NCBI RefSeq assembly: GCF_009832865.1
Contig: NZ_CP047130.1
Span: forward strand, 2,232,001-2,296,000
Length of the DNA stretch: 64,000 bases
Direction of reading: 5' to 3'
DNA from: Colwellia sp. 20A7
GTDB lineage: Bacteria; Pseudomonadota; Gammaproteobacteria; Enterobacterales; Alteromonadaceae
Shown here: positions 8,950-39,356 of the stretch, piece by piece
How positions within the stretch are numbered: the stretch's first letter is position 1
How the letters are laid out: each line of letters begins with the position of its first letter
The notes under the pieces: model-generated
What the model was told of the DNA's origin: nothing
What the model saw: the letters and a program-made list of their open reading frames with translations, nothing else
Database searches by the model: none
Position numbers and translations under genes: made by a program

Positions 8950-9666
8950 TTATTTTTGAACAAGTAACCATTGTTTTTTAGTAAATATTTCATAGGGGAA
9001 ATATCTATTCTTGTAATTCATTTTCTGACAATCATCAATTTGATAACCTAAGTATAAAAACGGTAAATTGAATTTTTTACAAAAATCTATTTGAGTAAGA
9101 ATAGAGAAAACACCTAAACCATTCGTCTTATAATCGGGGTGATAAAAGGTATATACCGCAGATAAGCCGTTACTTAATATGTCTGTTACGGCTAAGCACA
9201 CTAATTTCTTTTCGTTGTTTTCTTCTAACCAGGTTTCAATAAACAATTGTTTGGTTAACTTACTAGCAAGAAAGGTTTGAAATTGCTCATAATTCGCAGG
9301 AAACATGCTGCCGTCTTGATGACAGGTATTAATATAAGTTTCATACAAAGGATAATATTCATCCTTTAATGCTTCAGATGTAGTAATTTTAAAATGTGCA
9401 TTTCGCTTTAATGAACGTTTTTGGCTTTTAGATGGGGTAAATTGATTAACAATAACCCGAACCGAACTACAGGCATTACAGCTGGGACAATGAGGGCGAT
9501 AAGATTGATCGCCGCTGCGACGAAAACCTTCCATCATTAACATACTATAACCACGATTATTCTGTAATCGTTCGTCAATAGCAATCAATAAACGTTCTTC
9601 TTTGTTAGGCAAGTAACTACAAGGAAAGGTTTTTGTTATACCTACTTTAAAAGTATCATCATTCAT
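8950..9666 (-). CDS. bpt: Aspartate/glutamate leucyl- or arginyl-transferase (Bpt/Ate family)
   Basis: The enzyme transfers an aminoacyl group from tRNA to the N-terminal Asp/Glu of proteins, creating an N-degron for ClpS/ClpAP. The 238-residue protein has the N-terminal Cys cluster of the family (CSYLP near residue 16, then [12 protein letters not shown] near 60-71) and the C-terminal GNAT-like half ending in KNRYFPYE. In gammaproteobacteria this group is usually the bacterial leucyl-transferase Bpt rather than the eukaryote-like arginyl-transferase. It lies next to aat, the other N-end-rule transferase, and both are transcribed toward infA. Confidence 0.92.
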
Positions 9667-9806
9667 AGGGCAATTATTACTTATCTGTTGATTTGCGGCT
9701 TAATTAATTTAGGGTAATGCATTTGAGGTTATTTATGATCATTGAGCGATGAACGTTATTTCGTTAACTCCTTTCAACTTATTTTTTCCGTGTTGCTCTT
9801 TCCTAA

Positions 9807-10541
9807 TTACTCACTTAAGTTGACTTCACGAGGATGCCAAAAATCTTTATCGATCGCTATATCTATAGCTTTATTTTTTAAGTTAATAAAATCATCTCGG
9901 GTAACTTCACTTGCGCCCATGTCGGCTAAAAAAGGGTTTAGTAACTGGCAATCAATAAAATCTACGTTAACCGAACTTAATAATTTACTTATTGCTACCA
10001 AGGCAAATTTAGAGGCATTAGGTTTGCTATAAAACATGGATTCACCAGAAAAGAAACCATTAATAGCAATGCCGTATAAGCCACCGACAAGCTCTTCTTT
10101 TGGTGATAATGCGTCATCATTATTTGTTTGCCAAACTTCGATTGAATGAGCAAAGCCAAGTTGATGTAAGTTGATATAAGCTGCTTCCATTTCAGGCAAT
10201 ATCCAGGTTTCATCACTTCGAAAGGGGGCATTAGCGCATTGTTTAATAACTTGTTCAAAAGCTGAATTAACGGTGACTTTATAAGGTGATTTTTTTATTG
10301 CCTTACGTAAGGTACGATTAACGTGTAAATCAGCAAGTTTAATTATTGCTCTAGGATCTGGAGACCACCACATTAATGGGTCGCCTTCACTAAACCAAGG
10401 AAAGATGCCATTACTGTAAGCATTTATTAATCGATTAGGCTGTAAATCACCGCCTAAAGCTAACAAGCCATTAGGTTCAGTCAGGGCAGCGCTAACAGGA
10501 GGAAATGCTACGTTATTATCGTTGAGTTGATATAGGCGCAT
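9807..10541 (-). CDS. aat: Leucyl/phenylalanyl-tRNA-protein transferase
   Basis: Aat attaches Leu or Phe from aminoacyl-tRNA to proteins with N-terminal Lys or Arg, producing substrates for ClpS. The 244-residue protein carries the family hallmarks FPPVSAALTEPNGLLALGGDL near the start, NGIFPWFSEGDPLMWWSPDPR (near 50-70), and GGLYGIAINGFFSGESMF (near 150-170). The length is normal. It is followed 140 bases later by bpt on the same strand and preceded by trxB, so the N-end-rule genes may share transcripts with thioredoxin reductase. Confidence 0.96.
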   Translation of the reverse strand: MRLYQLNDNNVAFPPVSAALTEPNGLLALGGDLQPNRLINAYSNGIFPWFSEGDPLMWWSPDPRAIIKLADLHVNRTLRKAIKKSPYKVTVNSAFEQVIKQCANAPFRSDETWILPEMEAAYINLHQLGFAHSIEVWQTNNDDALSPKEELVGGLYGIAINGFFSGESMFYSKPNASKFALVAISKLLSSVNVDFIDCQLLNPFLADMGASEVTRDDFINLKNKAIDIAIDKDFWHPREVNLSE

Positions 10542-31937: not shown

Positions 31938-32186
31938 TTAACAGTCGGTATCTTCAGTATCCATTTTCTCTTTTGCGTCTTCACAAGCATCTTCGATAGC
32001 ATTACCTGTATCAGTGACTGCTTTTTGAATTTTGTCACCTGTATTCTTGGCAGCATCTTTGGTACTAGAAATCATATCATCAACTGTTTCGCCAGCTTCT
32101 TCTGCTTTATCATCGCTACAGGCAGCTAAACTTAGTACTGCTGCAAATGAGATCGCCATTATTGAAAGTCTTTTATTGTTATTCAT
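31938..32186 (-). CDS. Small lipoprotein, putative target of the sigma54 regulator
   Basis: The 82-residue protein has a lipoprotein signal peptide with lipobox LAAC (Cys at residue 23) followed by an acidic, helical, Lys/Asp/Glu-rich region (DDMISSTKDAAKNTGDKIQK) and ends in DTDC. Position +2 after the lipobox Cys is Ser, so outer-membrane sorting is expected. A strong AAGGAG precedes the ATG. A sigma54-type promoter and dyads lie upstream (32352-32464), with a small reading frame between. The composition resembles small stress-related lipoproteins and CsbD/LEA-like helices, but no function can be assigned. Confidence 0.82.
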   Translation of the reverse strand: MNNNKRLSIMAISFAAVLSLAACSDDKAEEAGETVDDMISSTKDAAKNTGDKIQKAVTDTGNAIEDACEDAKEKMDTEDTDC

Positions 32187-32251: not shown

Positions 32252-32308
32252 TTAATCAGATAACAAGTAATACGACATAGATACAAAAGTTAATGCACAA
32301 TCTAACAT
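32252..32308 (-). CDS. Possible 18-residue leader peptide in the lipoprotein mRNA
   Basis: An AAGGAG Shine-Dalgarno seven bases before an ATG opens an 18-codon frame (MLDCALTFVSMSYYLLSD). It lies between the sigma54 promoter and the lipoprotein gene, 65 bases before its ATG. The ribosome-binding site is as good as that of the lipoprotein itself. The peptide is hydrophobic. Whether it is translated is unknown. Confidence 0.4.
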   Translation of the reverse strand: MLDCALTFVSMSYYLLSD

Positions 32309-32351
32309 ATTATAGTTCTCCTTAACTTAACGCTTAGAGATACCTAGACTA

Positions 32352-32367
32352 TGCTATTGTTGTGCCA
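32352..32367 (-). promoter_or_regulatory. Sigma54 (RpoN) promoter for the lipoprotein
   Basis: On the minus strand the sequence reads TGGCACAACAATAGCA. The -24 TGGCAC is perfect and the GC core of the -12 element falls exactly 12 bases after the GG. Transcription would start near 32341, giving a leader of about 155 bases that contains the 18-codon frame. Confidence 0.75.
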
Positions 32368-32432
32368 GGTGTTAACTTGTTGTATTTTATGTGGTTTGTT
32401 TTGGTGTTTTTATCTGTGCTAGCGAGGAGTAG

Positions 32433-32464
32433 GTAAATATTACAGGGTGCTTTGCAGTATTTGC
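32433..32464 (-). promoter_or_regulatory. Paired dyads upstream of the lipoprotein sigma54 promoter (putative activator site)
   Basis: The proximal dyad GTAAATATTAC (32433-32443) fits GTAA-N3-TTAC and is centred 72 bp upstream of the -24 GG. A second, degenerate dyad GCAGTATTTGC (32454-32464) is centred 21 bp further upstream. The same arrangement occurs at the BON gene (38360-38391). Confidence 0.55.
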
Positions 32465-32511
32465 ACAGTGTTAGTACTTTTGTTATCTATAAAAGTTGCG
32501 TATAGCGACAA

Positions 32512-34506
32512 TTAAGCTTTATTAAAAAGCTGTTGTAACATAGTTAAATTAACGGGCTTGAGAAGAGAGCTATTTGCGCCATTTTCGGTTAATTCTTGTT
32601 TGGATACTTCATAACCACTAACAATAGTAATAGTAGTATTAGGCATATATGTTTTTAATGATGAACTTAATTCAAGCCCGTTACCATCAGGTAAGTTCAT
32701 ATCGACTAAAACGTGCTGCCAATCTATATCGGCTTTAACAATATTTTTAGCTTGTTCAGCATTGTTTGCTATTTGTACGTGCTTACCAATAGTACTCAGT
32801 AATAACGCAGTTATTTCAGCGGCATCAATATCATCTTCAATTAGTAACACGCGTTGATTAGGTTTTTTTTCTTTATCATCTTGTGATGTTGACTCTGATG
32901 ATGTTACTGACATTTTCTGGTTAGGAGCAGAAATATGATGGCTTAATTGTTGTTGTATTTTTTTGTGTAATTCATATTTATCAATAGGTTTCGCTACTAC
33001 ATCATTGAAGCCCAACCCCTTGAGTTCTTTACGTACACCTTTCATTGTTGCTGCAGTGATTGCGATTATTGGCGTATCTACGTGCATTTCTCTTAATTGT
33101 TTTATTGCGCGCTTACCATCTAAAACCGGCATATGAATATCCATTAAGACGAGATCATATTCCGTATTTTCTTTTTCTGCTGACACTATTTTAGTGATGG
33201 CTTGTTGGCCATTATTAGCATAACTTACTTCTAATCCAAAAGATCGACACACATAGCCAAGTAATCGTCTAATATCGTCAATATCATCAACAATCAGTAT
33301 TTTACCTGAAATTTTATTGATAACTTCAGTAGACGATTTATAGTCACTACGTTTAAAAGTTAAATTTTTACGTTCTGTATCGGCTATTTGTCCTGGATCG
33401 ATACAAACCACGAACTTACTACCAACACCAACGTTAGATTCTACTGAAATATTACCGCCCATATACTTTAGCAATTCACTGCAAATGGACAAGCCAAGCC
33501 CGGTACCTTCTTCGTTTCGTGACACAATGTCTTGTACTTGTTCAAAAGGTTTAAAGATTGTCGCTAATAAATTATCAGGAATACCCATCCCAGTATCGGT
33601 TATAGCAAAATATAAACGGGGTTGATCGCGTAACTCATCTAACCACACGTCAATATTCACTGTTCCTTGATTAGTAAACTTTATCGCATTATGAATAATA
33701 TTGATCAATACTTGGCGTAATCTAAGCGAATCAGCGCTAATTTCAATGGGTAAGGCTGATTTAGCTGATAAGGTTAAATTGATTCCTTTATCTTGGGCTG
33801 CCATCGACATTAAGGTATATACGTCTGCGATAAAGCTTTCGAGGGAGATAGTTGTAGCATTCAGCTCAAACTTTCCGGCAGCAATTTTAGAAAGATCGAG
33901 TACATTATTGAGTAATCCTAATAAGTGATTACCGTTATCTAATATAGTGGTTAACTCGGGTTGTATGCTTTTGTTACTATCATCGCTGAGTAATAATTCG
34001 GTGTACCCAAGTATTGAGGTAAGCGGTGTGCGTAATTCATGGCTCAAATGCGCTAAAAACTTATCTTTAGAGCGACTTCTTGCTTCAGCTTTTATTCGTT
34101 CAACCCGTTCATTTTCAATATCTTTTCTTGCTAAAGCGTAACGTATTGCTCTGTTAAATCTAGCACTATTAAGTTCAGATTTTACTAAGTAGTCAACGGC
34201 ACCTGCATCCAGTGCATTATTATCTAATTCAGTATCTGTTTGTCCGGTAAGCATAATAATTGGTACTGTGCAGCCATCACCAGTGGTTTGTTTAAGCACA
34301 GATAAACCGTTGACTCCGCCTAATTGATAGTCAAGTAAGCAAATGTCGTGATTATTTTCTTTGAGCAACGCCAATGCTTCAATGGAGTTGTCGACCCAAT
34401 CAACTTCAAAATGATGGTTTGGCATTTGTTGAAGATAATCAAGGGTGAGAATATAATCATCTTCATCATCTTCAACTAGCAGTATATGTTTAGTTAGCTT
34501 TTGCAT
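32512..34506 (-). CDS. Hybrid histidine kinase, REC-HisKA-HATPase-REC-REC
   Basis: The 664-residue cytoplasmic protein has an N-terminal receiver (residues 5-120, LLVEDDEDDY; phospho-Asp in ICLLDYQLGG), a HisKA domain with FLAHLSHELRTPLTSILGY near 150-170, and a HATPase domain with ITDTGMGIPDNLL near 300 and GTGLGLSIC near 337. Two further receivers follow (KILIVDDIDDIRR near 398, phospho-Asp in LVLMDIHMP; and RVLLIEDDIDAAEI near 548, phospho-Asp in VLVDMNLPDG). It has no membrane segment, so it receives its signal through the N-terminal receiver or a partner, most likely the kinase encoded upstream. It is the last gene of a five-gene minus-strand operon, 20 bases after the single-domain receiver gene. 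Confidence 0.93.
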   Translation of the reverse strand: MQKLTKHILLVEDDEDDYILTLDYLQQMPNHHFEVDWVDNSIEALALLKENNHDICLLDYQLGGVNGLSVLKQTTGDGCTVPIIMLTGQTDTELDNNALDAGAVDYLVKSELNSARFNRAIRYALARKDIENERVERIKAEARSRSKDKFLAHLSHELRTPLTSILGYTELLLSDDSNKSIQPELTTILDNGNHLLGLLNNVLDLSKIAAGKFELNATTISLESFIADVYTLMSMAAQDKGINLTLSAKSALPIEISADSLRLRQVLINIIHNAIKFTNQGTVNIDVWLDELRDQPRLYFAITDTGMGIPDNLLATIFKPFEQVQDIVSRNEEGTGLGLSICSELLKYMGGNISVESNVGVGSKFVVCIDPGQIADTERKNLTFKRSDYKSSTEVINKISGKILIVDDIDDIRRLLGYVCRSFGLEVSYANNGQQAITKIVSAEKENTEYDLVLMDIHMPVLDGKRAIKQLREMHVDTPIIAITAATMKGVRKELKGLGFNDVVAKPIDKYELHKKIQQQLSHHISAPNQKMSVTSSESTSQDDKEKKPNQRVLLIEDDIDAAEITALLLSTIGKHVQIANNAEQAKNIVKADIDWQHVLVDMNLPDGNGLELSSSLKTYMPNTTITIVSGYEVSKQELTENGANSSLLKPVNLTMLQQLFNKA

Positions 34507-34526
34507 AGATTAATTATTAATTTAAA

Positions 34527-35009
34527 TTAGTCATTATTTGTTAGTGTGCTATTTGACGTTTTTTCTGATGATGGAAGTTCGACAAATTCCACCCAATACT
34601 TACCTAACGCCTTCATTAAATCAACTAGGCCTTCAAAGTTGACAGGTTTCGTAATATAGGAAGCAGCACCAAGATCATAACCTTTAACCATGTCTTCTTC
34701 CTGTTTTGACGTAGTTAAAATAACGACGGGTATACTTCTAAGATTCGGGTCCGCTTTAATTTCTTTTAATGCTTCCCGCCCATCTTTGCGTGGCATATTC
34801 AAATCTAGCAAGATAAGCCCAGGTCGTGGCGCACTGACTTTATCTTGAAACTTACCGGTATGTGTTAAGTATTCGATAAGCTCAACGCCATCTTCTACAA
34901 AATAAAGCTCATTTAAAACGCGGCTTTCTATCAGTGCATCCTGTGCGAGTAGGCGATCATCGTCGTCATCATCCGCCATTAATATGATAATAGGTGTACT
35001 TTTTTTCAT
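34527..35009 (-). CDS. Single-domain response regulator (Rcp1-like)
   Basis: The 160-residue protein is one receiver domain: acidic cluster MADDDDDDRLLAQDAL near residues 10-25, phospho-Asp in LILLDLNMPRKDG near 68, VVILTTSKQEED near 95 and the switch Lys in YITKPVNF near 120. The extended ED-rich start and DLNMPRKDG motif are typical of Rcp1-type regulators that pair with soluble or CHASE3-type kinases. It has no output domain, so it probably shuttles phosphate or acts by binding. It lies between the CHASE3 kinase and the hybrid kinase, within the operon. Confidence 0.92.
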   Translation of the reverse strand: MKKSTPIIILMADDDDDDRLLAQDALIESRVLNELYFVEDGVELIEYLTHTGKFQDKVSAPRPGLILLDLNMPRKDGREALKEIKADPNLRSIPVVILTTSKQEEDMVKGYDLGAASYITKPVNFEGLVDLMKALGKYWVEFVELPSSEKTSNSTLTNND

Positions 35010-35051
35010 GTAACAATATCCTTTAGCATTTATAAACTTACGTGATTAAAA

Positions 35052-36542
35052 TTAACTGATCACAGTTAAGTTATTAGGAGCAATATAATCTTGTGGAATG
35101 CTGATAGTAAAACAAGTTCCTTTTCCTATTTCACTTTTTACATCGATGGTACCACCATGGCGCTCTACAATACGTCGACAAACGGCTAAACCGATCCCTG
35201 TCCCTTTGTAAGCTGATCTTGCATGTAGGCGCTGAAAGGGGACAAATATTTTATCTTCAAACTCTTGGTCAAAGCCAATACCATTATCGCTTATGGTAAT
35301 GATATTCCATAGAACATCAGTGTTTAGAATTGTATCGAATAATGACTCATGGCTATGGCTGATTTTAATTTGAGGTATTTTATCTTCTTGTCTAAACTTT
35401 ATCGCATTACTGAGTAGGTTTAAAAACAGTTGGTTTAGTTGAGAGATGTCACCATTAATCTCTGGTAAGTCTTGATATTCAATAATTGCCGAGCTTTCTT
35501 CAATAGATACTTCTAAGTCGTCAATAACGTCAGTGATTATCTGTGTGAGTGGTATTGCAACAAATGCTTTACCACGGGTATTAATACGTGAGTATTCTAA
35601 TAAGTCGCTTATTAAATTAGACATTCGTTCAGCGGCATTACGCATACGTTCAATAAAATCTAAACCTCTTTCATCTATCACTTCGTTATAACTTGTGGAT
35701 AATCTATCACCAAATGCTCTAATCTTGCGTAGAGGCTCTTGGAGATCATGCGAGGCAACAAAGGCAAAGTCTTCTAATTCACGGTTACTACGTGCTAGCT
35801 CTTCAGAATAGATGGTTAATTCTTTGGTACGCTGTTTTACTTTTTCGGTCAATTCTTCATTTTTAGCTTCTAATGAAAGTCGATGACGAAGCTCATTTCT
35901 ATTATTGAGTCGTACCAGTGCACCAAGACCTAAAAGTAATAAAAAACTTGTGATTGCTGAAACATTAAAAGTAAATTTAGCTTCTTTTTTAATGGTTTCT
36001 AATTTTTTATATAAGCTATTTCGGTATAACACTTCCCGAGTTTTTACTTCGTTAAACAGCTTTTCCATTTTTTTGTATAAGTCTTTACCACGACCAGTCA
36101 TAACAATAGATACCGCACGTTTTTCTTTGTCGTCTAATGCTAGATCAACAGTCGCACTCAGTTCTATCATTTTCATTTCAACTAAGTTAGTTAACTCTGT
36201 AATTTTATTGGCTTGTATGCCAATATCTGACTTTAACGATTGAACCAACTTTATTTGTTTTAAAACGTGTTCAATCGCGTTTTGGTAAGGTTGTAAAAAA
36301 TCTTCGTTTTCGGTGAGTAAATATCCACGTTGACCTGTTTCGGCAGAAAGCACTAGGTTATGAAGCTTATCTAAACTAAGAATTATTTCACCTGTATTAG
36401 CCATACTTTTTTGAGCAATCGATAAGTCATCAATAGTTTTAATTGATAGCATCACATTGATAACAATAACGATTGCGACAATAGAGAATACTATACTCCA
36501 TGACACTCTTTTGTTTGCTAATAATCTTTCAATGTAGAGCAT
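35052..36542 (-). CDS. CHASE3-domain membrane histidine kinase
   Basis: The 496-residue kinase has an N-terminal membrane helix (about 14-33), a periplasmic CHASE3 sensor (SAETGQRGYLLTENEDFLQPY near 75-95), and a second membrane helix (about 195-212). A short coiled coil leads to HisKA with DFAFVASHDLQEPLRKIRAF near 262 (phospho-His in SHDLQEPLRKI) and a HATPase domain (ISDNGIGFDQEFEDKIF near 420, GTGIGLAVCRRI near 448). The HDLQEPL H-box is the phytochrome-type variant, which commonly works with Rcp1-like receivers, matching the next gene. CHASE3 domains sense unidentified extracytoplasmic signals. It is the third gene of the operon. Confidence 0.93.
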   Translation of the reverse strand: MLYIERLLANKRVSWSIVFSIVAIVIVINVMLSIKTIDDLSIAQKSMANTGEIILSLDKLHNLVLSAETGQRGYLLTENEDFLQPYQNAIEHVLKQIKLVQSLKSDIGIQANKITELTNLVEMKMIELSATVDLALDDKEKRAVSIVMTGRGKDLYKKMEKLFNEVKTREVLYRNSLYKKLETIKKEAKFTFNVSAITSFLLLLGLGALVRLNNRNELRHRLSLEAKNEELTEKVKQRTKELTIYSEELARSNRELEDFAFVASHDLQEPLRKIRAFGDRLSTSYNEVIDERGLDFIERMRNAAERMSNLISDLLEYSRINTRGKAFVAIPLTQIITDVIDDLEVSIEESSAIIEYQDLPEINGDISQLNQLFLNLLSNAIKFRQEDKIPQIKISHSHESLFDTILNTDVLWNIITISDNGIGFDQEFEDKIFVPFQRLHARSAYKGTGIGLAVCRRIVERHGGTIDVKSEIGKGTCFTISIPQDYIAPNNLTVIS

Positions 36543-36556
36543 TGTAAATAACTGCC

Positions 36557-36787
36557 TTAGCTTTTAGCTGCTTTTAATAGTTGTTCAAGTGTTTGACTAC
36601 AGGCTTGGCATGAAACAATTATTTTGTTTGCTGCCTCTAGGGCTTTATCAACGGGCATGTCATTTTCAAGTACTAATTTAATCAGTTCTGCCTGCATTGA
36701 GATTCTATTTAACGGGCCACGGGCGTCATGAACAAGTTGATTTAAATCAGGTTGCTCTGATTGCATATTACTTTCATGATTTTTCAT
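36557..36787 (-). CDS. Stand-alone histidine-kinase dimerisation (DHp-like) protein
   Basis: The 76-residue protein is almost only a helical hairpin resembling a HisKA domain: the H-box-like NQLVHDARGPLNRISMQAEL (residues 17-36) matches the H-[ED]-x-R-x-PL-N-x-I pattern around a phosphorylatable His, followed by a second amphipathic helix ending LEQLLKAAKS. There is no ATPase domain. It could be a histidine phosphotransfer intermediate or a competitor for the DHp of the neighbouring kinases. The start at 36787 has GGAG upstream; an internal ATG at 36766 is an alternative. It lies between the sigma54 regulator (36 bases) and the CHASE3 kinase (14 bases). Confidence 0.75.
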   Translation of the reverse strand: MKNHESNMQSEQPDLNQLVHDARGPLNRISMQAELIKLVLENDMPVDKALEAANKIIVSCQACSQTLEQLLKAAKS

Positions 36788-36823
36788 TGCTAGTTACTCC
36801 AAGCTTTTTTAGTTCAATTGATA

Positions 36824-38170
36824 TTATTCTTCAAACTCTCCGTAGGCATGTAAACGGTTATATAAAGTTTTTGTACTAATGCCTAACATTTTCGCAGCAA
36901 GAGATTTATTACCATCAACATCATCGAGTGTTACTTTAATTAACTCTCGCTCTACATCTTCAATAGTGCGACCTGCACTTAAATTATGCTGTTTTTCTGT
37001 GATAGACGAGAAGGGCGAACGAAAGTCTTTTGGTAAAGCTAAATTACTACTGTCGGGATCAGACATAATAAAAGCACGATGAATCGCGTGTCGCATTTCT
37101 CTAATATTTCCTGGCCAGTCATAATCGGTTAATCGTTGAATTTGTTCAGCACTCCATTCATAGCTCCGGTTATATTCTTCGTTTAATTCTCCTAGAAACA
37201 CTCTGGCTAATAACGGAATATCTTCTTTTCGTTTTCTTAATGGTGGAATGTTAATAGGAAATACAGCCAGTCTAAAATATATATCTTCTCTTAATACTTT
37301 ATTTTGTGCTATTTCTTCAATAGAGCGATTTGTCGCAGAAATAACTCGGCAGTTTACTTCAATTTCTTTTGTACCACCCAAAGGTGTAATCTTATTACTT
37401 TCGAGTACTCGTAATAAGTTGGGTTGCATATCAATGGGCATTTCAGTTATTTCGTCTAGAAATAATGTGCCGTTACCTGCACGCAAGAATACGCCATCTT
37501 TTTTTGTAATTGCGCCAGTAAATGCGCCTTTTTCATGCCCAAATAGTTCACTAGCGATTAAGTCTTTTGCTAATGCGCCACAGTTAGTTGCAACTAACTC
37601 AGTGTCGTTATCTGTTGTTAAATTACTTGCGCTATGAATAGCTTGCGCCACTAACTCTTTACCTACGCCACTTTCACCTAATAACATCACATTCGCCTTT
37701 GTTAGCGCAATACGAGATATCATTGTATACATTTCTTGCATCACGGCTGATTCACCAATAAGGCAATCAAAATGTTTTTTAGGTAGTGTGCTGTTCTGCT
37801 TTGTTTCGCTAGCTGGCTTTGACTGTCGCGTTAATGCTTGCTCTAAATCTTCGCGTTGTAACGGCTTAGCAATATAGTTAACTTTGGGGCCACATAATCC
37901 AGCTAGTAAGCCTTTAACTAAAGGGTGCCCGGTAATTAGTGTAATGTAAGGTGTGTGGTTTGATTTTTTGACGTGATCTATTAGGTGTAAGCCGCTACCA
38001 TCAGGAAGCATGAAATCTAAAAGAATGTGATCAAACGTATTGTTTTCTAGCCATTCATAGGCTTCTTCCAGACAACTAGCTATACTAATATCATGGCCTA
38101 AAAATTCAATTATTTGACAGGCTATTTCAGTAAATTCTGTATCATCATCTACCAATAATACTCTTAACAC
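36824..38170 (-). CDS. Sigma54-dependent response regulator (NtrC family)
   Basis: The 448-residue regulator has a receiver (VLLVDDDTEFTEIAC; phospho-Asp in HILLDFMLPDGSG near 53), a sigma54-interacting AAA+ domain with Walker A LGESGVGKELVAQAIH near 165 and the sigma54-contact loop GHEKGAFTGAITKKDG near 215-230, and a C-terminal Fis-type HTH (GNKSLAAKMLGISTKTLYNRL near 420-440). The GAFTGA motif is intact, so it should activate sigma54 promoters. The start is GTG at 38170 with AAGGAG upstream; an ATG two bases before is out of frame and meets a stop after two codons. It is the first gene of the operon and is divergent from the BON gene. Confidence 0.95.
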   Translation of the reverse strand: MLRVLLVDDDTEFTEIACQIIEFLGHDISIASCLEEAYEWLENNTFDHILLDFMLPDGSGLHLIDHVKKSNHTPYITLITGHPLVKGLLAGLCGPKVNYIAKPLQREDLEQALTRQSKPASETKQNSTLPKKHFDCLIGESAVMQEMYTMISRIALTKANVMLLGESGVGKELVAQAIHSASNLTTDNDTELVATNCGALAKDLIASELFGHEKGAFTGAITKKDGVFLRAGNGTLFLDEITEMPIDMQPNLLRVLESNKITPLGGTKEIEVNCRVISATNRSIEEIAQNKVLREDIYFRLAVFPINIPPLRKRKEDIPLLARVFLGELNEEYNRSYEWSAEQIQRLTDYDWPGNIREMRHAIHRAFIMSDPDSSNLALPKDFRSPFSSITEKQHNLSAGRTIEDVERELIKVTLDDVDGNKSLAAKMLGISTKTLYNRLHAYGEFEE

Positions 38171-38359
38171 ATTAACTCCTTAAATTTATTTAAGACTAGT
38201 ATAAGCTCATTATATTTGTCTTACTCTTTTAATTTCAGAGCTTTATTGTTTATATTCACGTATTTCAAGTGTTTTCACTATTAAATACAAGCATTATTAT
38301 CATTTAGCGTAATATTTCTGCCTGAATCTATCTACTACCTGATTTACCATTCACTAAGT

Positions 38360-38391
38360 GTAACTATTACCAGTTCATAGGTAATAGTTAC
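38360..38391 (+). promoter_or_regulatory. Paired dyads (putative enhancer-binding site) upstream of the BON gene
   Basis: GTAACTATTAC (38360-38370) and GTAATAGTTAC (38381-38391) both fit GTAA-N3-TTAC and are 21 bp apart centre to centre, i.e. two helical turns. Together they are part of a perfect 15-bp inverted repeat (38357-38394, 8-base loop). The proximal dyad is centred about 71 bp upstream of the -24 GG, the usual place for an NtrC-type activator. It lies in the 335-base divergent region between the regulator and the BON gene; the rest of that region shows nothing else. Confidence 0.65.
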
Positions 38392-38455
38392 ACTGTTTTA
38401 TTTGTTTATTCTTTATCCTGTAATTAATTTACTTATATTTCAACAGCCTAAGTGT

Positions 38456-38471
38456 TGGCATTAAACTGGCA
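38456..38471 (+). promoter_or_regulatory. Sigma54 (RpoN) promoter for the BON-domain gene
   Basis: The sequence TGGCATTAAACTGGCA has the -24 GG and the -12 GC exactly 12 bases apart. Transcription would start near 38482, 24 bases before the ATG, leaving space for the AGGAG ribosome-binding site. Confidence 0.7.
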
Positions 38472-38505
38472 TTAATATTAGTGAACTTTTAACAGGAGAA
38501 CAAAT

Positions 38506-39078
38506 ATGAAAAATACAACCCTTTCAATTATTATCGCTACTGCTATTAGTACGGCTTCTTTAAATGTTAGCGCAGAAAATACATGGAAAGATAACGCTAA
38601 AGACGCATGGATTGATGGTAAAGCTGAATCAACACTTCTTTTTAACGGCAATTTAAATTCTTTCGATATTAATACCGACGTTAAAAACGGTACGGTTATT
38701 CTAACAGGTAAAGTTAAAAACTCTGTCGACAAAGCTTTAGCAGAAGAGCTTGTAGCTTCTCTTGAAGGTGTAACCAAAGTAAATAATATGTTGTCTGTTA
38801 TTGATGATGACAATAATTCACAAGGAAAAGATGTTGAGATCATGAAAAATCTCAAGGATTCTAAGGTGGAAACAGTGGTAAAGACAAGATTGTTGTTTGA
38901 GTCACAGATCAGTGGATTAGACATAGAAGTTGAAGTAGAGAACGGAGTTGTGACACTTGAAGGTAACGTAGCGTCTGAATCAGAGCGTGATCTTGCCGTT
39001 GCCATAGCGATGAATACGAATGATGTTACTAATGTCGTCAATAAAATTGTAGTAAAAGACCTAGTAGCAAGTAACTAA
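38506..39078 (+). CDS. Periplasmic double BON-domain protein (OsmY-like)
   Basis: The 190-residue protein has a signal peptide (residues 1-23, cleavage near VSA-ENT) and two BON domains (about 38-105 and 118-185), each with the pattern hydrophobic-V-x-NGxVxLxGxV (VKNGTVILTGKVKNSVDKAL and VENGVVTLEGNVASESERDL). OsmY, with the same layout, is an osmotic and envelope stress protein in E. coli. The gene is divergent from the sigma54 regulator operon and has a sigma54-type promoter with paired dyads, so it is the most likely direct target of that regulator. Confidence 0.9.
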   Translation: MKNTTLSIIIATAISTASLNVSAENTWKDNAKDAWIDGKAESTLLFNGNLNSFDINTDVKNGTVILTGKVKNSVDKALAEELVASLEGVTKVNNMLSVIDDDNNSQGKDVEIMKNLKDSKVETVVKTRLLFESQISGLDIEVEVENGVVTLEGNVASESERDLAVAIAMNTNDVTNVVNKIVVKDLVASN

Positions 39079-39149: not shown

Positions 39150-39356
39150 ATGATTATGAAAATTTCAAATATTAAGTTACCCAAGTTTTTCAGCGCTAGC
39201 AAACCTATTAACGCGAATGTACCTGTCGTTAATCAATTCAACTGGTTTGATCGCGATGAAAACGATATAAATGAACCCCCTGAAGGATCTAGAATAACTT
39301 ATATGTCAGGAATTGATATTAACGCTCCTTTGCCAACTGACCAAAACTTTAAATAA
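39150..39356 (+). CDS. Small hypothetical protein (68 residues)
   Basis: The product is polar and has no membrane segment. It contains NWFDRDENDINEPPEGSRIT near residues 31-50 and ends PLPTDQNFK. I do not recognise a family. Two ATGs are possible (39150 and 39156). It lies 71 bases after the BON gene on the same strand and may share its sigma54-driven transcript. Confidence 0.55.
   Translation: MIMKISNIKLPKFFSASKPINANVPVVNQFNWFDRDENDINEPPEGSRITYMSGIDINAPLPTDQNFK

Follow-up and report, generated by a model that had tools for sequence, protein, structure and literature searches.

The window considered here is a 64-kb stretch of the 4.58-Mb genome of Colwellia sp. 20A7 (NZ_CP047130.1, positions 2,232,001-2,296,000). 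It contains an operon of five genes, headed by an NtrC-type response regulator that we call RegA, and this operon lies between two sigma54 promoters, one before the gene of a BON-domain protein and the other before a transcript that encodes a small lipoprotein. It is quite probable that RegA activates a sigma54 stress regulon through a pair of GTAA-N3-TTAC dyads, with BON, lipoprotein and DUF1328 genes as targets, that RegA receives its phosphate in a relay through a DHp-only protein, and that in relatives a second regulator, RegB, serves as an alternative to RegA. An initial annotation of the window had read it as a sigma54 regulon driven by the window's own regulator, and this reading is supported by the sequence comparisons that follow.

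The promoter architecture was recovered as the annotation had described it. In both -24/-12 elements, which begin at 38456 on the plus strand and at 32367 on the minus strand, the GG and GC cores start 12 bases apart; a dyad is centred 71 bp (BON) or 72 bp (lipoprotein) upstream of the -24 GG, and a second dyad lies 21 bp further out, perfect at the BON gene and degenerate at the lipoprotein gene (dyads are scored throughout as matches out of 8). Perfect GTAA-N3-TTAC matches occur only three times in the window (32433-32443, 38360-38370 and 38381-38391), and a perfect dyad pair with 21 bp spacing occurs a single time in the genome, at the BON promoter. When up to three mismatches are allowed, dyad pairs are not enriched genome-wide (88, against 98 in the reversed-pattern control, forward) and are useless for target finding. 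The lipoprotein pair is found among the genome matches with three mismatches, and because such pairs are no commoner than in the control, this site is convincing by its position and not by its sequence alone. Degenerate distal sites like that of the lipoprotein also occur in near relatives and, at 93 bp and with 6/8, at the third target described next.

That there are only two targets, as first proposed, did not hold, since a genome-wide search for the same architecture gives at least three. Three sigma54 promoter patterns were scanned, giving 65 sites, by which the sigma54 promoters of the genome are not exhausted. For the pattern TGGCAY-N7-GCAT, 13 sites were found (control 6). A perfect dyad is present at three of them, with distances of 71, 71 and 72 bp; at the other ten no dyad reaches 7/8. 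With the two further patterns, 29 sites (against 7 in the control) and 23 sites (against 11) were obtained; the glnA and flagellin promoters seem to be among them, genes which we take to be such from recognition of their sequences. Among these 52 sites there are no perfect dyads and two of 7/8. In all, a perfect dyad is found at 3 of the 65 sites, always at 71-72 bp: before the BON gene, before the lipoprotein transcript and before one further gene pair. For three perfect dyads spread at random, the chance of hitting exactly these three of the 65 sites is 2.3e-5; two of these had been known before the scan. The third site (1892715-1892731, minus strand; dyad at 71 bp) is followed by an intact DUF1328 gene (PF07043; 53 bits, cut-off 27) and by the gene of a second small lipoprotein, a paralogue. 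Two more sites are possible weak targets: L347, where the dyad (7/8) lies at 70 bp and a gene for a 291-residue protein follows, and L351, with a 7/8 dyad at 68 bp and no open reading frame (ORF) of at least 45 residues starting within 250 bp. The site TGGCACATTTTTAACATTA (L176) was tried as a target and rejected: its second core is AC and not GC, so that it fails as a -12 element, and the nearby ORFs are not regulon-like.

Features of the window, with predicted roles where these apply (positions are those of the window; distances are from dyad centre to the -24 GG)
Feature	Position	Strand	Basis or remark
-24/-12 sigma54 element of BON gene, TGGCATTAAACTGGCA	38456..38471	+	pattern search
-24/-12 sigma54 element of lipoprotein transcript, TGGCACAACAATAGCA	32352..32367	-	pattern search
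BON proximal dyad, GTAATAGTTAC	38381..38391		71 bp upstream; position conserved in relatives
BON distal dyad, GTAACTATTAC	38360..38370		92 bp upstream; position conserved in relatives
Lipoprotein proximal dyad, GTAATATTTAC (minus-strand letters)	32433..32443		72 bp upstream
Lipoprotein distal dyad, degenerate, GCAAATACTGC (minus-strand letters)	32454..32464		5/8; 21 bp further out
RegA, NtrC-type response regulator, GTG start	36824..38170	-	receiver, sigma54 AAA+ (PF00158, GAFTGA) and Fis helix-turn-helix (PF02954, HTH_8)
DHp-only protein, 76 residues, invariant His20, proposed phosphotransferase	36557..36787	-	alignment; HisKA-like; model
CHASE3 histidine kinase	35052..36542	-	domain search
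Single-domain receiver	34527..35009	-	domain search
Hybrid histidine kinase (three receiver stretches, HisKA, HATPase)	32512..34506	-	domain search
Two-BON-domain protein, OsmY-like, predicted target	38506..39078	+	PF04972, two stretches; OsmY model score below cut-off; signal peptide by eye
Small lipoprotein, predicted target	31938..32186	-	ORF list; LAAC lipobox by eye
18-codon ORF, first in lipoprotein transcript	32252..32308	-	place equals that of intact DUF1328 genes in relatives; 6 of first 8 residues shared with MLNWALTF

The lipoprotein promoter is present as annotated, but the ORF immediately downstream of it is not the lipoprotein gene: it has 18 codons and is a probable remnant of a DUF1328 gene that is intact in relatives and at the third target. 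The small lipoprotein itself matched no Pfam family above the cut-off. Directly 3' of the BON gene, at 39156-39356 on the plus strand, lies a 66-residue ORF with no Pfam match at E<=1, which may be co-transcribed with BON from the sigma54 promoter. Upstream of the third target, an imperfect array of 98-150 bp repeats was found by Tandem Repeats Finder (L177, 2028-2841); its unit contains, by eye, a string like the 3' end of a tRNA, and ARAGORN found no tRNA in L177.

The same elements and dyads recur at orthologous loci. Genomes were drawn from the family (196), the order (394) and the class (369); the draws overlap and include the window's genome. RegA, counted as present when a homologue had E<=1e-90, occurs in 53/196, 23/394 and 5/369 of these, respectively, and 55 RegA loci were inspected (52 from the family, those of Paraglaciecola marina and Gilvimarinus agarilyticus, and the window). 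A strong BON match (E<=1e-40) is found in 49 of the 53 RegA-positive genomes of the family and in 22 of the 143 RegA-negative ones (Fisher p 4e-24, uncorrected for kinship). The upstream regions of 86 BON genes were compared, from 30 + 56 loci, with the window included and with one weaker match (L276). When the best -24/-12 element in 340 nt is taken and a score of at least 17 in the weighting of this analysis is demanded, 83 of the 86 regions have an element, and in 71 of these 83 it lies 40-75 nt before the start of the match. After dereplication, 70 BON promoters have dyads of at least 7/8 in 13 cases at 70-75 bp (mean 0.41 and maximum 3 in 200 shuffles within 30-base blocks) and in 23 cases at 91-96 bp (mean 0.39, maximum 3). 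The corresponding numbers for 26 promoters that follow the hybrid kinase gene are 9 and 6, with a shuffle value of 0.14 for each. Picking sites by best score chose the wrong element in some BON regions (e.g., L244, where a better-placed element exists in the same genome), by which the dyad counts are weakened and not inflated. Further distances in the same lists are 59-60, 82, 101-106 and 112-115 bp, and together the distances suggest that the dyads are in helical phase. The gene behind the element downstream of the hybrid kinase varies by clade and is DUF1328 with a lipoprotein, hemerythrin-like, DUF883-like or BON; the hemerythrin and DUF1328 names are confirmed by Pfam on other members, and the DUF883 label was given by eye, as Pfam did not assign that family to the one tested.

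The inverted repeat at 38357-38394, in which the two BON dyads lie, could in principle be an intrinsic terminator or RNA hairpin instead of a set of protein-binding sites. It does score as terminator-like, with 15 pairs, five of them G-C, followed by a T-rich tail, where 0.1 such structures are expected in shuffles; but it sits between two divergently transcribed genes and upstream of the BON promoter, and neither of the other two targets has a second perfect dyad with which the first could pair. Furthermore, at least 13 of the 15 stem pairs are formed in only 4 of 83 BON promoters, those of the window and three relatives, and nearly all others are within the range of one shuffle, although the individual dyads keep their position and sequence across BON promoters. 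Because the pairing is preserved in so few of the promoters, it is the dyads that are conserved and not the hairpin, and the terminator reading, which is very improbable, is rejected.

RegA-negative genomes carry a regulator that may read the same site. In 18 of the 22 BON-positive, RegA-negative genomes the best RegA homologue is a paralogue, RegB, with 39-47% identity, whose match starts only at about residue 100-130 in 15 of the 18; in the one protein for which the N-terminal part was searched, Response_reg was not matched. When these 18 proteins are aligned with two more from genomes that also carry RegA, none of the 20 has the full acidic pair or the conserved Lys of a receiver, and the phospho-Asp column holds Glu in 13, Gln in 4 and Asp in 3 (L279, L285 and L300); the Glu could mimic a phosphorylated state. 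The recognition helix LGIS[TV]KTLYN[RK]L is common to most RegA and RegB rows. In the tree, RegA forms one clade (100/100) and RegB another (100/99), and these two join a small side group in a clade (99/95) apart from the other bacterial enhancer-binding proteins (bEBPs) sampled, with the order of the three groups left open. The side group ('M') consists of class-level homologues at 41-43% identity (L328-L330) together with L041, and has no DHp neighbour in the flanking stretches examined. RegB and BON are at most 4 kb apart in 12 of these 18 genomes; in the other 6 RegB is encoded elsewhere. Around the 18 RegB genes there are 53 intergenic sigma54-like sites, of which 21 carry a dyad of 7/8 or better, to be compared with the about 5 chance matches seen for 70 BON promoters over a somewhat longer span. 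The genes behind these sites include BON, DUF1328, DUF883-like, CsbD, Dps-like and others (the Dps and DUF883 labels are by eye). Apparently, then, the dyad element is shared with RegB, a regulator with a degenerate receiver.

From these data one may also argue that the sigma54 promoters are real but that the dyads are read by some other regulator, RegA controlling something else. Among the RegB-only BON promoters with a sigma54 element, 12 of 17 bear dyads of at least 7/8 where there is no RegA; yet precisely in these RegA-negative genomes RegB brings the same recognition helix and, as said, is mostly encoded close to BON. In addition, good dyads are missing where neither regulator is recognised: four BON promoters from two genera keep the sigma54 element and have dyads of at most 5/8 at 45-115 bp, one of them with a 6/8 match at 116 bp, the absence of both regulators being judged from the best homologue, which was not placed in the tree. 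A different reader of the dyads is accordingly improbable, and RegA, with RegB in some relatives, is the preferred candidate.

In two RegB neighbourhoods there are further genes: L312 has one for an NhaA-type Na+/H+ antiporter (9090-10451), and L319 one for a fusion of dual-specificity phosphatase and lipid kinase, PRK12361 (3081-4700). Similar protein starts are seen by eye in L311, L313 and L317. These genes hint at stress of the membrane or at pH/osmotic stress.

RegA is, as annotated, the first gene of its operon and of NtrC type. On sequence it looks like a regular bEBP: its receiver keeps the phosphorylation residues D9, D10, D52, T80 and K102, its AAA+ domain has the GAFTGA loop, and a Fis-type helix-turn-helix and paired dyads complete the set. 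The receiver aspartates, Thr/Ser and Lys are kept in all aligned RegA rows, an alignment from which L142, a frame with a stop, was left out. All five operon genes are present at 53 of the 55 RegA loci; L170 is without kinase and receiver matches, and L174 is also without the hybrid kinase. Most matches in the RegA contig search were bEBPs with 31-39% identity (one had 43% over part of its length); besides these there were orthologues in Paraglaciecola (67%) and Gilvimarinus (54%). RegA scores far below the NCBIfam equivalog cut-offs for ZraR (278.3 against 760 bits), GlrR (251.7 against 763) and PspF (238.8 against 443.55). There is one rpoN match in the window's genome. One relative (G009) has a second RegA, 48-50% identical, with a DHp-like gene of its own about 5 kb from the first (L137, 4533-6073), and in another (G004; L028/L142), which is also without a strong BON match, the RegA orthologue has an in-frame TAG.

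The DHp-only protein is found at 55/55 RegA loci, with its His invariant in an H-box context. A wider protein search found 211 relatives, and when 32 from the best 120 are aligned with the window protein, His20 is kept in 33/33 sequences and HisKA matches at E<=0.01 in 31/33, the match of the window protein being below the Pfam cut-off. Among the relatives listed, those closest to the window protein that bear a genus name come from Thalassotalea, and the protein is also present in Pseudoalteromonas. AlphaFold2 models the protein as a two-helix hairpin (residues 15-41 and 46-75, mean pLDDT 87.2) with His20 in the first helix. When the alignment was used to search PDB sequences, no match had an E below 0.07, and EnvZ chains appeared at 0.32-0.91. 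Several sources label the relatives 'histidine kinase', but their length leaves no room for an ATPase domain. On sequence and model, the locus appears to have what marks a relay of the Spo0B or PhyT type: a DHp protein that bears the His and has no active ATPase domain, with genes for a single-domain receiver and for an output regulator close by.

It counts against such a relay that RegA could be phosphorylated directly by a kinase, with the DHp-only protein bypassed. RegA would then still act on BON, DUF1328 and lipoprotein genes, and the DHp-only protein would be an inhibitor, a phosphatase or a scaffold; the operon does encode full kinases, and proteins with the DHp fold can also be phosphatases. 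However, the invariant H-box His, the conserved single-domain receiver and the adjacency of the genes for the DHp protein and RegA agree with a transfer step, and the bypass is rather unlikely in comparison with the relay.

Other observations weigh against the regulon as proposed. RegA is missing from 143 of the 196 genomes of the family and is seldom found outside it. Of 62 BON promoters of RegA-positive genomes, 16 lack a dyad of at least 7/8 (their best have 5-6 of 8), as do 5 of the 17 RegB-only promoters with a sigma54 element; three more RegB-only regions have no such element. Because there are BON promoters with sigma54 elements but no dyads, sigma54 can control BON without the dyad site. 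A good element (score >=17) is found close downstream of the hybrid kinase at only 28 of 54 loci, the best match at the other 26 being weak or further away, and no -24/-12 element was identified for the operon itself. Finally, the counts across relatives lack phylogenetic independence.

The preferred scheme is then as follows. Most likely, phosphate would pass from the CHASE3 kinase, the hybrid kinase or both to the single-domain receiver, from there to His20 of the DHp-only protein and further to RegA. RegA would bind the dyad pair on one helix face, the proximal dyad at 71 bp and the distal one at about 92 bp before the -24 GG. Since bEBPs in general oligomerise and remodel sigma54 polymerase, phosphorylated RegA is expected to oligomerise at both dyads and to remodel the polymerase at the adjacent promoter, driving the OsmY-like BON protein, the small lipoprotein, and the distant DUF1328 membrane protein with the second lipoprotein. 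In some relatives RegB would serve the same cis-element without such a relay. We infer binding, activation, the direction of phosphate flow and the inducing signal, envelope or osmotic stress, from the sequences; for an envelope stress role, it is the gene content that speaks, with OsmY-like BON, DUF1328 and lipoprotein genes here and DUF883-like, CsbD, hemerythrin and Dps-like genes in relatives.

In a wider perspective, it is an even question whether many Alteromonadales-type bacteria run an RpoS-like stress programme on sigma54. Such a programme would cover BON, DUF1328, small lipoprotein, DUF883-like, CsbD, hemerythrin, Dps-like and lipid-kinase genes, and use one element, the GTAA-N3-TTAC pair in helical phase, with two interchangeable, related activators, one served by a minimal DHp-only relay protein of about 65-85 residues and the other, with mostly Glu for the phospho-Asp in a degenerate receiver, controlled otherwise. 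Stress proteins of the OsmY type and of the DUF1328, DUF883 and CsbD families are widespread, but their function is poorly understood, and they are mostly treated as targets of RpoS or extracytoplasmic function (ECF) sigma factors. With a sigma54 regulon that is conserved and has a defined candidate site, one can begin to ask when these bacteria produce them. That relatives seem to have exchanged the regulator over a similar cis-element amounts to an experiment of nature in rewiring, and at 76 residues the DHp-only protein would be a very small kinase-derived relay phosphotransferase.

The components are of known kinds. ZraR, GlrR and PspF have bEBP domains and envelope-related targets, but their targets and cis-elements differ from those of RegA. 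In E. coli, OsmY, YtjA and ElaB/YqjD belong to the same or similar small stress families and are RpoS-controlled, where sigma54 is predicted here. The NorR consensus, GTCA-N3-TGAC, has a similar dyad spacing, for which a literature search gave no confirmation. In the Spo0F-Spo0B-Spo0A relay, a single-domain receiver passes phosphate to a dimeric DHp phosphotransferase and this to a DNA-binding response regulator, the same layout as that proposed here; the present system differs in its output domain, in the absence of sporulation and in a phosphotransferase that has no C-terminal domain. With its invariant His and its place beside a single-domain receiver, the DHp-only protein would by analogy most resemble the transfer step of Spo0B or PhyT. 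In the titles and abstract starts that searches of the open-licence literature brought up, neither this regulon nor the DHp-only protein is described, and a description elsewhere could exist.

Sigma54 activators with a link to envelope stress are already on record, for example in Desulfovibrio vulgaris, where the two-component activators DVU1419 and DVU3381 are, by description, listed under envelope stress response; the main text of that paper does not name BON, OsmY, CsbD, lipoprotein or hemerythrin (PMC4641369). NmpRSTU of Myxococcus xanthus, as described, likewise combines a multi-component phosphorelay, an NtrC-like regulator, paired dyads, sigma54 and a hemerythrin gene in the regulon, but it differs in its site, GCGCA-N5-TGCGC, in NmpS, a hybrid kinase that has a receiver, and in a regulon for oxygen use (PMC11841059). 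In the published account of Sphingomonas melonis, PhyT carries phosphate from the single-domain receiver SdrG to PhyR, by which the general stress response is turned on (PMC5898713). There the output is PhyR/NepR/EcfG and here an NtrC-type sigma54 activator; the window regulator has no PhyR-type output with a sigma-like domain, its output domains being sigma54 AAA+ and HTH_8. PhyT-type proteins have a degenerate ATPase domain, and the 76-residue window protein is without one. Common to both systems, on the description given for S. melonis, are kinases, a single-domain receiver, a phosphotransferase thought to be kinase-derived and an output of stress genes (PMC5898713).

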